A stretch of 64,000 nt of DNA from Gemmatimonadota bacterium (GTDB lineage: Bacteria; Gemmatimonadota; Gemmatimonadetes; Gemmatimonadales; Gemmatimonadaceae): positions 88,112 through 152,111 of the forward strand of contig JAHFCT010000001.1 of assembly GCA_023249375.1 (NCBI GenBank), given 5' to 3'. The notes beneath the pieces were generated by a model that was not told where the DNA came from, searched no databases, and saw nothing but the letters and a program-made list of their open reading frames with translations. This document shows, in pieces, positions 19,254-24,264 of this stretch (positions are counted from its first letter, which is position 1; each line of letters begins with the position of its first letter). A program made the position numbers and the translations under genes.

Positions 19254-20660
19254 GTGACTGACAATCTGACTCCTGACGTCCTCGTCATTGGCGGTGGACC
19301 GGGCGGCTACGTCGCCTCGATCCGCGCGGCGCAGCTGGGCCTGTCCACCGTGTGCGTGGAAATGGACCGCACCCTCGGCGGCACCTGCGTCAACGTCGGC
19401 TGCATTCCGTCCAAGGCGCTGCTCAGCTCCACGGAGCACTACGAGTTCGCTCGACTGCACGCCGCCGAGCACGGCATCGATTATCAGGGTGTGACGTTCG
19501 ACCTCGCGCGCATGATGCAGCGCAAGGACGACGTGGTCGCGCAGAACACCAAGGGCGTGGAGTTCCTCTTCAAGAAGAACAAGGTCACGTGGGCCAAGGG
19601 TTTCGGGACGCTCAAGGCCGGCAACGTGGTCGACGTGAAGGCCGATGATGGCACGGTAACGACGTACGCGCCGAAGCACGTCATCCTCGCCACGGGTTCG
19701 GTGCCGGTGGAGTTGCCGTTCCTGCCGTTCGACGAGGAGCGGATCATCTCCAACGTCGGCGCGCTCAAGCTGCCCGAGGTGCCGCGGCATCTCATCGTGA
19801 TCGGCGGCGGCGTGATTGGCCTCGAGCTTGGCTCGGTCTGGCGCCGGCTGGGGGCGCAGGTCACGGTGATCGAATTCATGCCGACGATTCTCCCCGGCAA
19901 TGACGACGACATCACCAAGGAAGCGGCGCGCATCTTCAAGAAGCAGGGTATGGACCTGCACGTCGGCACCAAGGTGACCGGCGGCCGGCGCGACGGCGAA
20001 TCGGTGATCGTCGAGGTTGAGGAAAAGGGAACGCCGGGCACGTTCACCGCCGACTGCGTGCTCGTGTCCATCGGACGCAAGCCCGCGCTCTACGGCGTCG
20101 ACGCGGCGGCCTTGGGCCTCACGCTCGGACCGCGCGGCGAGATCGCGGTCGACGATCAGCTGCGCACCAATCTTCCGAACGTCTTCGCGATCGGCGATGC
20201 CGTCGGCGGCAAGCTCCTCGCGCACAAGGCAGAGGAGGAAGGCGTGATCGCCGCCGAAGTGATCGCCGGCAAGAGCGCGCACATGCACTACCACAACATG
20301 CCCGGCGTCGTCTACACGTGGCCGGAAATCGCCACCTGCGGTCTTACGGAGTCCGAGGTGAAGGCCAGCGGCCGCTCGTACCGCGTCGGCAAGTTCCCGT
20401 TCTCCGCCAATGGCCGCGCGCGTTCAATGGGCGAGACCAACGGCTTCGTGAAGTTCGTCGTCGACGCCGGCACCGACGAGATCCTTGGCTGCCACATGAT
20501 TGGCGCGAACGTCAGCGACCTGCTGAGCGAGGTCGTGCTCGCGATGGAATACAGAGGCACCGCCGAGGATATCGGGACGACGGTGCACTCGCATCCGACG
20601 CTGACGGAGATCGTGAAAGAGGCGGCGCTCGCGGCGCTGGGCCGGGCGATCCACGTCTAG
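19254..20660 (+). CDS. lpdA: Dihydrolipoyl dehydrogenase (E3)
   Basis: Product of 468 residues, the standard E3 length. FAD-binding VIGGGPGGYVA, redox disulfide C45-C50 (GGTCVNVGCIPSK), NAD-binding VIGGGVIGLELGSVW and the C-terminal catalytic pair H447/E452 (HSHPTLTE) are all present. It reoxidises dihydrolipoamide on E2 with NAD+. It starts with GTG at 19254. E2 and E3 probably form one transcript, with E3 likely shared by other 2-oxo acid dehydrogenases. Confidence 0.96.
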   Translation: MTDNLTPDVLVIGGGPGGYVASIRAAQLGLSTVCVEMDRTLGGTCVNVGCIPSKALLSSTEHYEFARLHAAEHGIDYQGVTFDLARMMQRKDDVVAQNTKGVEFLFKKNKVTWAKGFGTLKAGNVVDVKADDGTVTTYAPKHVILATGSVPVELPFLPFDEERIISNVGALKLPEVPRHLIVIGGGVIGLELGSVWRRLGAQVTVIEFMPTILPGNDDDITKEAARIFKKQGMDLHVGTKVTGGRRDGESVIVEVEEKGTPGTFTADCVLVSIGRKPALYGVDAAALGLTLGPRGEIAVDDQLRTNLPNVFAIGDAVGGKLLAHKAEEEGVIAAEVIAGKSAHMHYHNMPGVVYTWPEIATCGLTESEVKASGRSYRVGKFPFSANGRARSMGETNGFVKFVVDAGTDEILGCHMIGANVSDLLSEVVLAMEYRGTAEDIGTTVHSHPTLTEIVKEAALAALGRAIHV

Positions 20661-20681
20661 GTGGCAGCCACCGTCACCTAG
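20657..20681. terminator. Convergent hairpin covering both stop codons
   Basis: CTAGGTG (20657-20663) and CACCTAG (20675-20681) are perfect arms, with an inner GGTGG/CCACC pairing. Each arm contains a stop codon, one for lpdA and one for the opposing DinB gene. There is no T-run, so termination would be weak or factor-dependent. Confidence 0.5.
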
Positions 20682-21205
20682 AGAGCGTACCGTTCCACCA
20701 GGACCTTCTCGTGGTGCATCGCGTGCCCCGCCGCGATCCACGCGAGCGCGCGGGCACTGACTTCCTTGCCGCTGGCCGTGCCGCGTCGCGTCCACGCTGC
20801 ATCGGGCATCCAGCGCAGCAGCGCCAGCGTCGCGCCGCGCACGGCGGCGAATTCGCCGAGCAGCGTGTCGAGCGAGCGCTCGTTGGCGCCGCAGGTGACT
20901 GCGTAGGCGTTCTCGTCGAACGGCGAGAGCGGCGTGGTGTCACCGCGCCCGATCCGGAGGATTCGATACGCGAAAATCCGCTCGGCGTCGGCGATGTGGC
21001 AAATGACTTCCTTCACAGTCCACTTGCCTGGCGCGTACGCAAAGGCTGCCTGCTCCTCGCTGAGGTGCTTGAGGCGTGCGAGCATCGACTCGCCTTGCGC
21101 GGCGAGCGTGCGCGTGACGTCGCCGTCAGGGACGGATGCGACGTAGCCGGCGTAGAACGGCGCAAATTCGTCAGCAGCAGGGCGGTAGCTCGATTCGGCA
21201 CTCAT
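20678..21205 (-). CDS. DinB-family four-helix metal protein
   Basis: Product of 175 residues in the DinB/YfiT range. Histidines sit where the family places its metal triad: VICHIADAERIFAYR in the second helix, and AAGHAMHHEKVL near the C-terminus. GKWTVKEVICHI is a typical DinB motif. Members are thiol-dependent transferases or hydrolases of unclear substrate. ATG at 21205 has GGGGG seven bases upstream. It is transcribed alone, convergent with lpdA. Confidence 0.82.
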   Translation of the reverse strand: MSAESSYRPAADEFAPFYAGYVASVPDGDVTRTLAAQGESMLARLKHLSEEQAAFAYAPGKWTVKEVICHIADAERIFAYRILRIGRGDTTPLSPFDENAYAVTCGANERSLDTLLGEFAAVRGATLALLRWMPDAAWTRRGTASGKEVSARALAWIAAGHAMHHEKVLVERYAL

Positions 21206-21257
21206 GCAAATCCCCCTGTGAAAGCCCACTTTAAATGGAATTTGGCCCGTGTAAGGG

Positions 21258-21282
21258 TTTCGTGAGGAAATGCCTCACAAAA
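21258..21282. promoter_or_regulatory. Inverted repeat upstream of the DinB gene
   Basis: TTTCGTGAGG and CCTCACAAAA pair over 10 bases with one wobble around a 5-base loop, 53 bases before the DinB start. There is no following T-run in either direction, so an operator or leader hairpin is more likely than a terminator. Confidence 0.45.
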
Positions 21283-21395
21283 CTTCCATAATTGCACCGT
21301 ATTCCGCAGCGATGCCCCACACCAGACATTCCCTGTGCGATCAGTAGCGCGCTGAACAACTGCGGCGATGCACTGGTCAGAAATATAGTGGGAGA

Positions 21396-21593
21396 CGCAG
21401 GGTCGCTTCGGCGACCCAGCGTGTCGCGGTAGGCACAGCGTGGGGCGCGTACAGTGCGCCGGGGGGCCGTCACTGGCTCGTTCACCGCTGACCTACCGCG
21501 ACTCACGTTAAGGCCATCGAGTTTCGAATTCTCAGAGGAGACTCGAACGGCAACGGAGGAGTGCGCCACATTCGGCGCGCTCCTCCGTTTCCT
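21396..21593 (+). ncRNA. Candidate structured small RNA
   Basis: A 412-base gap (21206-21618) with no convincing gene holds ordered secondary structure. A perfect GGGTCGC-TTCG-GCGACCC hairpin (21400-21417, stable UUCG loop) comes first. A long stem follows, pairing TCGCGGTAGG (21424-21433) with CCTACCGCGA (21492-21501) and CAGCG with CGCTG inside it, then a TTCGA/TCGAA stem and a strong terminator. A TATAGT box lies at 21384-21389. It lacks the signatures of RNase P RNA, tmRNA and SRP RNA that I know. The strand is inferred from the box and the terminator tail. Confidence 0.45.
21552..21593 (+). terminator. Strong intrinsic terminator (16-bp stem)
   Basis: AACGGAGGAGTGCGCC pairs with GGCGCGCTCCTCCGTT (one T-G wobble) around ACATTC and is followed by TTCCTT. 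It can end the candidate RNA on the plus strand. It lies 26 bases beyond the stop of the opposing glycosidase gene and may serve that gene too, although the minus-strand tail is T-poor. Confidence 0.75.
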
Positions 21594-21618
21594 TGTGCGC
21601 CCTGTTGATGCCGCCGTG

Positions 21619-24264
21619 CTACTTCGCTCGCAACACGATTTCCCGCCGCACGTACCCATCTGCGTCGGCGCCATCGCGCGGCAGCGGGATGGTGATCGGG
21701 ACGGCACCAGCGCGCACGAGACGCTCAGCCAGCGCACCGCCGATTGCCTGCTGTTCATTGCCGAGGCTGCTCCCCATCGGGATCGATGCATAGGCGACAT
21801 CGGGTGCGCCGACGACGCTACGTGCCCCACGCACGAATCCAATCGCCGTATCACCGGCGATGCCTTCAATCGACAGCCGAATCAAATCGCCCTCGGTACG
21901 CAACGACACCACGCGCACGGCCCTCGAGCGTGCACCGATCACCGCGTTCGGGCTCACGAAACGCACCTCCGGCGCCGTCCCGCGCGCCGTCTCCAGATGC
22001 AACACCGTCTGCCCCGCTTGCAGCTCGCCGCGCACGGGGCGCGCGCCGGCCACCGGGTTGAACGTGACGCGCAGCATGCGTCCTGTGTCGCCGCCGGCGC
22101 GCGTCACGTCGAGCATGACAACCGACGCGCGCACGGTGACCTTGAGGTCAACCTGCATGCGCCCCACCCACAGACGGTCCACGCGCACGCCGTCTTCGCC
22201 CAGCGGCACCCACGGTGCCACGGTGAGTGACCCGGCGGGGGCATCGACCTCGAGCCCCATCATGCCGCGCAGCAGCGGTGTGAGAATCATCGACGTGGCA
22301 AAGAACTGCTGCGGCACCGCGGTGTCGAGCGGCTTGTACACGCGTCCGCTGATCACTTCGGGATTGCGGCCGCGCGCTTCGTCGAACGTTGTGCCCGCGA
22401 TGGCGCGCAGGGCCTGCCACCCCGCGTTCGGGTTGCCGTACCGGAACTGCGCCGTGGACACCCATCCGGTGACGAAGCCCCACACGGCGCCATTGTTGTA
22501 ATGCAGGGGATCAAAGAGCGTGCTCGTCGTCGACAGCGGACGCGCGCCCCAATCCGTCATCAAATCGGAGCGTGCCATCCGCTCGGCCATCAGTCGTCCG
22601 TTGGCTTTGTTGAAGACGTCGAATGCCATCGCCGTTGCGGGCCACGCGGTCATCGTCTCGTTGATCTTGCCCTGCTCCAGCACGGCGAAGGCGTACTGTC
22701 CCTTGGAGGGAATCCAGAGCTTGCCGTCGAGTGCCGCGATGGCGCGCGTGCGCTCCGCGCGCGCCTCGGTGGCCAGCGCGGGCTCATTCATCGCCTCAGC
22801 CATGCGTGCAAAGCGCTCGAGTGAGGCGGCCCAAACGCCGTTGAGGTAGACATCGCTGACGATCCCCTCCTGCAGGTCGCCAACCTCGAGCGCGCCGGCG
22901 CCGGCGCACGTGTTCTCCATCAGGCCGTCGCCGTCGGTGTCACACTTGCGAGACCACTCGTACGCCTTCTTCACATTCGGCCAGAGCGCACGGACCGTGG
23001 CGGTGTCGGCCGTCTGCTTCCAGTACTCGCCGAACGCCAAGATCCAGAATGGCGTCGTGTCGCCGTGGTAGTACGCGTACCCGTACGCGCCGAACCAGTC
23101 GATCTTTCCCGCTCCCTGCGAGATCTCGTGCGTGATCTTGCCGTCGGCGCGCTGGTACTTGGCGAAGAACTTGAGCGCGCCGTCGCGCACCAGTTCGTGC
23201 TGTCCGGCGGCGCTCATCGCGAATGAGTTGATGGACGCATCGCCGCCGAAGAACCAGCCAAAGCCGGGACGATCGCTGGCCGCGCCTGACAGCCCGTAGC
23301 CGGCGACAAGCCCGCAACCAAGGTCGGGGTTGCAGACCATCGATTCGTCGAGATTCACTTTGGCCCACTCGACGGCGCGGTCGAGCACGGCGTCGCCCGT
23401 CACGACCGAGACTTGCTGCGTGCGAATCGAGTCGGCGTGCGCCACGCGCTTCTTCCACTCGCGTTCGATCGCACCAGGCTCGAGCAGGCGCCGGTACAGC
23501 GCGAGCACCGAGTCGCGCGGCATCTCACCGCCCGCCATGACGATCGGGATGTACTTGGCGTGGATGTTGACGTTGCCGCCTGGTGGCTCGCCGAGCCGCG
23601 GTTCCGTGTAGCGCTCGTTTGAGCTCCCCACACCAATCGTGAACTCGGGCGGCGCGGCGGAGAGCATGTGCGCGGGCACGTCGCTCGCTTGCGTGACGGC
23701 GGGCGAACCGAGGAACGCGCTCACTTTGCGTCGGCTCTCGCTGAAAACGAACGCCTTGGCCCCCGCGTGCCACGCGACGTACTGCCCGCCGAGCGAGGCC
23801 GGCCAGGCGAGATGCACGTCGGGCACGAACGACGCGATGATTTCCATCGGCCGGATCGCATCGACTTCGAGCAGCATCATCACGGCCGGAAGGTCCACCG
23901 AGGCGAACACCGTCTGCTTCACGGTGAACGTCTCGTACGCGTACGTGATGGTGACGCCCTCGGGGCGCACAAGCACGGAACGGGCGACGTCCTTGCCGGG
24001 AATGGCCTGCGTGTACTTGGGAACGCGGAAGCTCAGCTTGAAGTCGTGCATCCACTTGTACGGCCAGCTCCACATCTCAAAGGACCCGTCTTCGGTGCCC
24101 ATCGCAATGGCGCGCCGCCCTACGGCGCTGAGGTATTGGCCCGGCCGGGCATCACCGCTGAGCGCGATGGGTGAGCGGCCGAGGTCAAACGGGGCGATGG
24201 TCTGAGCAGTGGCGGCCACGGGAAGCGCGGCGGCAATGGCGAGGACAGCAAGTAAGCGGCGCAT
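21619..24264 (-). CDS. Exported six-hairpin glycosidase-like protein (amylo-1,6-glucosidase/GH63-like)
   Basis: Product of 881 residues with a signal peptide (MRRLLAVLAIAAALPVAATAQ). The middle resembles an (alpha/alpha)6-barrel glycosidase of the debranching-enzyme type: RPGFGWFFGGDASINSFAM, a helical KYQRADGKITHEIS, WFGAYGYAYYHGDTTPFWI, and a calcium-like loop CDTDGDGLMENTC. An N-terminal beta-sandwich and a C-terminal beta-rich domain flank it. It probably hydrolyses an alpha-linked oligosaccharide outside the cytoplasm. The frame extends 164 codons upstream across the SulP gene end, but the signal peptide fixes the start. Catalytic acids cannot be assigned from sequence alone. Confidence 0.75.
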   Translation of the reverse strand: MRRLLAVLAIAAALPVAATAQTIAPFDLGRSPIALSGDARPGQYLSAVGRRAIAMGTEDGSFEMWSWPYKWMHDFKLSFRVPKYTQAIPGKDVARSVLVRPEGVTITYAYETFTVKQTVFASVDLPAVMMLLEVDAIRPMEIIASFVPDVHLAWPASLGGQYVAWHAGAKAFVFSESRRKVSAFLGSPAVTQASDVPAHMLSAAPPEFTIGVGSSNERYTEPRLGEPPGGNVNIHAKYIPIVMAGGEMPRDSVLALYRRLLEPGAIEREWKKRVAHADSIRTQQVSVVTGDAVLDRAVEWAKVNLDESMVCNPDLGCGLVAGYGLSGAASDRPGFGWFFGGDASINSFAMSAAGQHELVRDGALKFFAKYQRADGKITHEISQGAGKIDWFGAYGYAYYHGDTTPFWILAFGEYWKQTADTATVRALWPNVKKAYEWSRKCDTDGDGLMENTCAGAGALEVGDLQEGIVSDVYLNGVWAASLERFARMAEAMNEPALATEARAERTRAIAALDGKLWIPSKGQYAFAVLEQGKINETMTAWPATAMAFDVFNKANGRLMAERMARSDLMTDWGARPLSTTSTLFDPLHYNNGAVWGFVTGWVSTAQFRYGNPNAGWQALRAIAGTTFDEARGRNPEVISGRVYKPLDTAVPQQFFATSMILTPLLRGMMGLEVDAPAGSLTVAPWVPLGEDGVRVDRLWVGRMQVDLKVTVRASVVMLDVTRAGGDTGRMLRVTFNPVAGARPVRGELQAGQTVLHLETARGTAPEVRFVSPNAVIGARSRAVRVVSLRTEGDLIRLSIEGIAGDTAIGFVRGARSVVGAPDVAYASIPMGSSLGNEQQAIGGALAERLVRAGAVPITIPLPRDGADADGYVRREIVLRAK

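Follow-up and report, generated by a model that had tools for sequence, protein, structure and literature searches.

A probable structured noncoding RNA gene with a nearly invariant rod between dinB-family and glycosidase genes in Gemmatimonadota

The window analysed here, a stretch of 64 kb, belongs to a 3.8-Mb genome bin and holds, between a DinB_2-family gene (dinB) and a glycoside hydrolase gene (glycosidase), a gap in which a candidate small RNA had been proposed at 21396-21593. Both neighbouring genes lie on the minus strand, and the RNA is therefore not the leader of a downstream gene. The features of the locus are as follows.

20681-21205, minus strand: DinB_2-family protein gene, divergent from the RNA (Pfam PF12867, E 6e-24)
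21262-21278, no strand: dyad GTGAGG-N5-CCTCAC in the divergent dinB/RNA promoter region, in 9/9 aligned loci
21287-21292, plus strand: candidate -10 element CATAAT, the best conserved sigma-70-like position upstream (mean 7.3 of 12)
About 21299-21595, plus strand: putative stand-alone RNA gene of about 290 nt, both ends predicted
21325-21334, plus strand: conserved motif GACAUUCCCU, in 9/9 loci with one substitution in one sequence
21341-21376, plus strand: hairpin P1, 13 pairs, 94% of cells paired, 4 pairs compensatory
21395-21422, plus strand: hairpin P2 of 11 pairs, paired in 100% of cells, its loop being UUCG in the window genome; one of the pairs varies as UA/UG/CG
21423-21502, plus strand: rod P3, 80 nt and GC-rich, 32 pairs of which 30 never vary, 97% mean nucleotide identity over nine loci
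21513-21551, plus strand: hairpin between rod and terminator in the MFE fold of the window genome, in a region of unconserved sequence
21552-21589, no strand: terminator-like hairpin P4, 16 pairs, between the converging RNA and glycosidase genes
21619-24246, minus strand: glycoside hydrolase gene (MGH1-like / GH116-like), convergent with the RNA (Pfam PF22422, PF04685)

The structures originally described within 21396-21593 proved real, but the 5' end had been drawn too narrowly: hairpin P1 had been missed, and both P1 and a conserved region that extends upstream as far as about 21255 are part of this gene. A perfect 7-bp UUCG hairpin is present as described in the sequence and in the MFE fold (GGGUCGC-UUCG-GCGACCC at 21400-21417), and is lengthened by ACGC/GCGU to occupy 21395-21422. 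The long helix GUCGCGGUAGG/CCUACCGCGAC is likewise found in both, although it comprises 11 bp (21423-21433 with 21492-21502) and not the 10 given. The inner 5-bp helix CAGCG/CGCUG was confirmed, and further pairing beyond it leads to an almost continuous rod with small internal loops only. The 16-bp terminator does exist as a hairpin at 21552-21589, its 16 pairs including one G-U, but the T-rich tail said to follow it (TTTCCTTG) is modest and a consensus terminator scan made no call. That pairing of this density exceeds chance expectation holds against dinucleotide shuffles: the plus strand folds at -119.6 kcal/mol compared with -80.4 +/- 4.5 for 200 shuffled sequences (z -8.76, 0/200 as low), and the reverse strand folds more weakly (-107.1, z -7.39). 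With correction for GC content the fold z of -5.0 is the most extreme of the 64 kb, where the best window of a tiled grid reached -3.8 (3868 windows, both strands); without that correction, four grid windows equal or beat the stretch in raw fold energy.

An ortholog of the RNA was found in nine of the 11 genomes of the genus, with the gene order lpd, dinB, RNA, glycosidase to the extent that the contigs cover it. A sequence search of 60 genomes, the window genome included, gave strong matches in these nine over approximately the first 130 of 221 query bases and in the window genome itself over the full length, and a covariance model returned the same nine. The model matched none of the remaining 168 genomes of the family (179 in total) and none of the 277 other genomes of the order (288 in total), in searches run with strict filters under which weak relatives can be lost. 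Both genus members in which the RNA was not found (G007 and G008) are also without dinB and an orthologous lpd (best match 46-47% identity), and the glycosidase is missing in G007 and cut by a contig end in G008; as the surrounding locus is not there, the absence of the RNA may be an assembly gap. Within the genus genomes examined, the RNA is present wherever the locus is assembled. It occurs as a single copy at a fixed place in each genome, except that G003, which is fragmented, has in addition a partial second copy of 92 nt (L015) at the edge of a contig. Three loci of other genera show no such RNA upstream of their dinB. A 28-mer scan of contig records returned at least eight stretches from seven named assemblies, and the records sharing the core are labelled Gemmatimonadetes or Gemmatimonadota, with one Gemmatimonas sp. 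and one 'bacterium'. The best reading of this distribution is that the RNA is restricted to the genus.

Several candidate relatives were rejected. The weak matches L011, L012 and L016 look unrelated on reading, L016, a short similarity elsewhere in the window genome, being a hairpin between converging genes. With filters off, a search of loci with dinB or glycosidase homologs, covering 25 of 33 (L042-L046 and L051-L070; L047-L050 and L071-L074 were left out), gave as its best match a long tandem-repeat hairpin next to the glycosidase of another genus (E 0.002 and 0.008, one per strand) that was judged unrelated. An origin in a mobile element or phage was also set aside, since viral contigs, plasmids and phages yielded no match to the RNA. 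We note two structures at the loci of other genera: a near-perfect tandem-repeat hairpin of CGCAGAGGA units adjoining a glycosidase homolog (L044:1279-1381), and, upstream of dinB, an ORF flanked by inverted CACGGAGACACAGAGACACGGAG-type repeat copies (L051:960-1420), which we take to resemble GxxExxY proteins.

Among the nine loci mean identity is 91% in the block at about 21255-21299, 77% in the P1 domain, 95% over P2 and P3 together, 97% in the rod and 56% downstream. The neighbouring genes reach nucleotide identities of 74% (dinB), 79% (glycosidase, from seven of the nine loci as two contigs end early) and 84% (lpd), each of them less than that of the rod. No ORF of at least 20 codons is common to all nine loci on either strand: such ORFs differ between loci, and there are none on the plus strand in one locus and none on the minus strand in five.

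The proposal of a small RNA had come with the suggestion of an Rfam search and of an alignment of the orthologous dinB-glycosidase gaps for compensatory changes, and it is supported by both. The alignment recovers the same RNA with compensatory changes, albeit mostly in the 5' hairpin outside 21396-21593, because the rod, which lies inside, hardly varies. Over nine distinct sequences and 56 pairs, 98.0% of 504 cells pair. Two-sided changes occur in 6/56 pairs compared with a mean of 2.2 in shuffles (0/500 as high), counts that are not to be read as probabilities since the nine sequences are close relatives from one genus; the partial copy of G003 (L015) was left out of them. Sliding the structure by one to three columns leaves no pair or a single pair with two-sided changes. 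These changes are spread unevenly, with four of 13 pairs in P1, one of 11 in P2 and one of 32 in the rod. Within P1, five of the nine sequences do not form the pair at columns 22-49, and when P1 arms were exchanged between species the cognate arms paired better (P 0.014, permutation). The sole two-sided pair of the rod (119-163) is broken in three of nine sequences, so that the case for a paired rod comes from energy and from pairs that are invariant or wobble. G-U pairs make up 44 of the approximately 494 paired cells, and two wobble pairs of the rod are invariant; as each would be an A-C mismatch on the other strand, they favour an RNA of the plus strand over a cruciform in DNA or an RNA of the minus strand.

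From these comparisons we consider it very likely that the stretch is a stand-alone, plus-strand gene for a structured noncoding RNA. Its conserved, folded, stand-alone and noncoding character is supported at the level of sequence; its transcription from the plus strand, its start and stop, and its function we infer. It resembles other stand-alone intergenic bacterial small RNAs in what would be a transcription unit of its own between genes, with a strong fold, a putative hairpin terminator, a covarying stem and no shared ORF, but differs from them in that the constrained length is mostly a near-invariant GC-rich rod, that Hfq was not found in the genus and that there is no known target. In agreement with the view that no known RNA signature fits, no Rfam family reached its gathering threshold anywhere in the window. 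At E up to 10 over 20600-22300, the plus strand of the core had no match, and the matches obtained fell on the terminator hairpin (minus-strand sraL and two miRNA models), on the opposite strand or in other places. The sraL match (RF01408) is weak, at 24.8 bits (E 0.0054) where the cut-off is 39, and was treated as chance; it covers the minus strand of the terminator hairpin and the 3' end of the glycosidase, outside the core. Index entries for the literature on small RNAs, 6S RNA and candidate structured RNAs of Gemmatimonadetes and on noncoding RNA of Gemmatimonas make no evident mention of this RNA and, going by such entries alone, no work on small RNAs of the phylum Gemmatimonadota is evident. 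We have filed the RNA as a new family of a known kind.

At the 5' side, the dyad GTGAGG-N5-CCTCAC carries an A to G change in one arm in two of the nine loci; it may be an operator. The candidate -10 element CATAAT (CGTAAT in one locus) stands 32 nt from GACATT in 9/9 loci, with variable sequence between the two. The -35 match at this site is weak, and by the sigma-70 consensus the promoter would be a weak one. Strong matches to the upstream block were found in four of 99 genomes, all in the genus, together with three weak matches (E 0.002-0.009).

At the 3' side, relatives carry at the place of P4 hairpins of other sequence, often much longer and made of short tandem units, and in some relatives similar hairpins also stand where lpd and dinB converge. 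For this reason P4 is probably best read as a bidirectional terminator, and it looks like the ordinary terminator type of the genus between converging genes. Like intrinsic terminators, it is a GC-rich hairpin placed where converging units end, but its U tract is weak, and such terminators account for P4 only and not for P1-P3. As a separate observation, long inverted repeats of tandem 8-11 nt units (e.g. ACAACAGAGAG) lie between converging genes at L017:6887-6966, L018:7866-8007, L020:3468-3597, L024:5587-5702 and others. A ACAACAGAGAG-type 20-mer, allowing two mismatches, occurs 70-330 times per genome in seven of the 11 genus members (G001, G002, G004, G005, G006, G008 and G010), has 0-2 copies in the other four and none in nine genomes of other genera; a reversed control gives similar matches, presumably owing to the near symmetry of the unit.

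We propose that the RNA would start near 21299, its promoter region serving the divergent dinB-family gene as well, and would fold into the covarying P1, the short UUCG-type P2 and the 80-nt rod P3, a succession consistent with the comparison of the nine loci, before ending at the hairpin terminator P4 that it may have in common with the converging glycosidase gene. P1 and P4 vary freely, but the bases of the rod are nearly all fixed, which makes it likely that the rod is the functional portion and that its individual bases are what a partner, most likely a protein, would recognise, without Hfq, which was found in 0/13 genomes in a search whose controls were positive in 5/14. A specific partner of the rod is the most economical reading of a rod that stays fixed while P1 keeps mainly its fold; protein binding as the mechanism is nevertheless put forward tentatively. 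It is somewhat more doubtful, but possible, that the RNA represents an undescribed Gemmatimonadota family of structured RNA that acts independently of Hfq and uses its invariant rod to bind and control a protein, with a role like that of 6S or CsrB-type RNAs but another architecture. An RNA more conserved than the adjoining protein genes, in a lineage without detectable Hfq, would offer a clean entry to RNA regulation there, and the rod predicts a specific binding partner.

Another possibility is that the RNA is a trans-acting antisense small RNA, with GACAUUCCCU as a seed that pairs with the Shine-Dalgarno regions (AGGGAA-like) of target mRNAs and with the rod and hairpins serving only to stabilise it. 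The near-complete conservation of GACAUUCCCU would fit this model, as would its predicted partly unpaired state (mean unpaired probability 0.41-0.75 over the nine loci). However, the same predictions weaken it, as the motif is only partly unpaired and in several relatives is paired with the linker before P2. GACAUUCCCU could be a seed or the 5' strand of a closing stem; the closing stem considered (P1a, GACAUUCCCU with the linker) was rejected, because cognate arms did not pair better than swapped ones (P 0.18). The failure to find Hfq in the genus also speaks against antisense action, which moreover leaves unexplained that the rod, and not the seed, is the most constrained part. We regard it as unlikely.

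Distinctly less probable is a DNA-level element, that is, a protein-binding or recombination site or a cruciform, in which the inverted repeats act as DNA. A near-palindromic stretch conserved letter for letter to this extreme degree is what such an element would look like, but a cruciform in DNA would have a mismatch at every G-U pair, invariant or variable, the pairing of P1 is kept through compensatory changes, and one copy per genome at a fixed place (with the partial second copy in one), with none in viral, plasmid and phage collections, does not suit it. We place slightly below this the possibility that the conserved block is the 5' untranslated region of a minus-strand leader or attenuator of the dinB-family gene: the 91% block does lie about 50-90 nt upstream of dinB, but the core is about 190-300 nt upstream, and both the wobble pairs and the fold energy favour the plus strand.

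That the RNA is instead a known RNA in diverged form, 6S RNA being the foremost candidate, is conceivable given that Rfam 6S yields no match over its cut-off in 18 genomes of the family, but it is scarcely credible, since a separate 6S-like locus exists, which excludes 6S as far as the search tools reach, and since the rod is without the large central bubble that is the defining feature of 6S RNA. Our preferred stand-alone RNA is like 6S RNA (RF00013) in being long, rod-like and conserved in one lineage; it differs from it in having no Rfam match and no such bubble, the RF00013 model finding nothing in the window, in 20600-22300 at E 10 or in the 11 genus genomes at E 0.1, and in that several of the same genomes have a separate 6S-like gene. 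The 6S-like RNA of Gemmatimonadota itself (L077:1500-1690, L078:1500-1700 and L079-L084) scores below the Rfam cut-off, with 25.8 and 22.9 bits against 46.4 in two other genera. Its DNA has matches at E below 1e-11 in six of the 11 genus genomes, and the RNA described here is present in four of these six.
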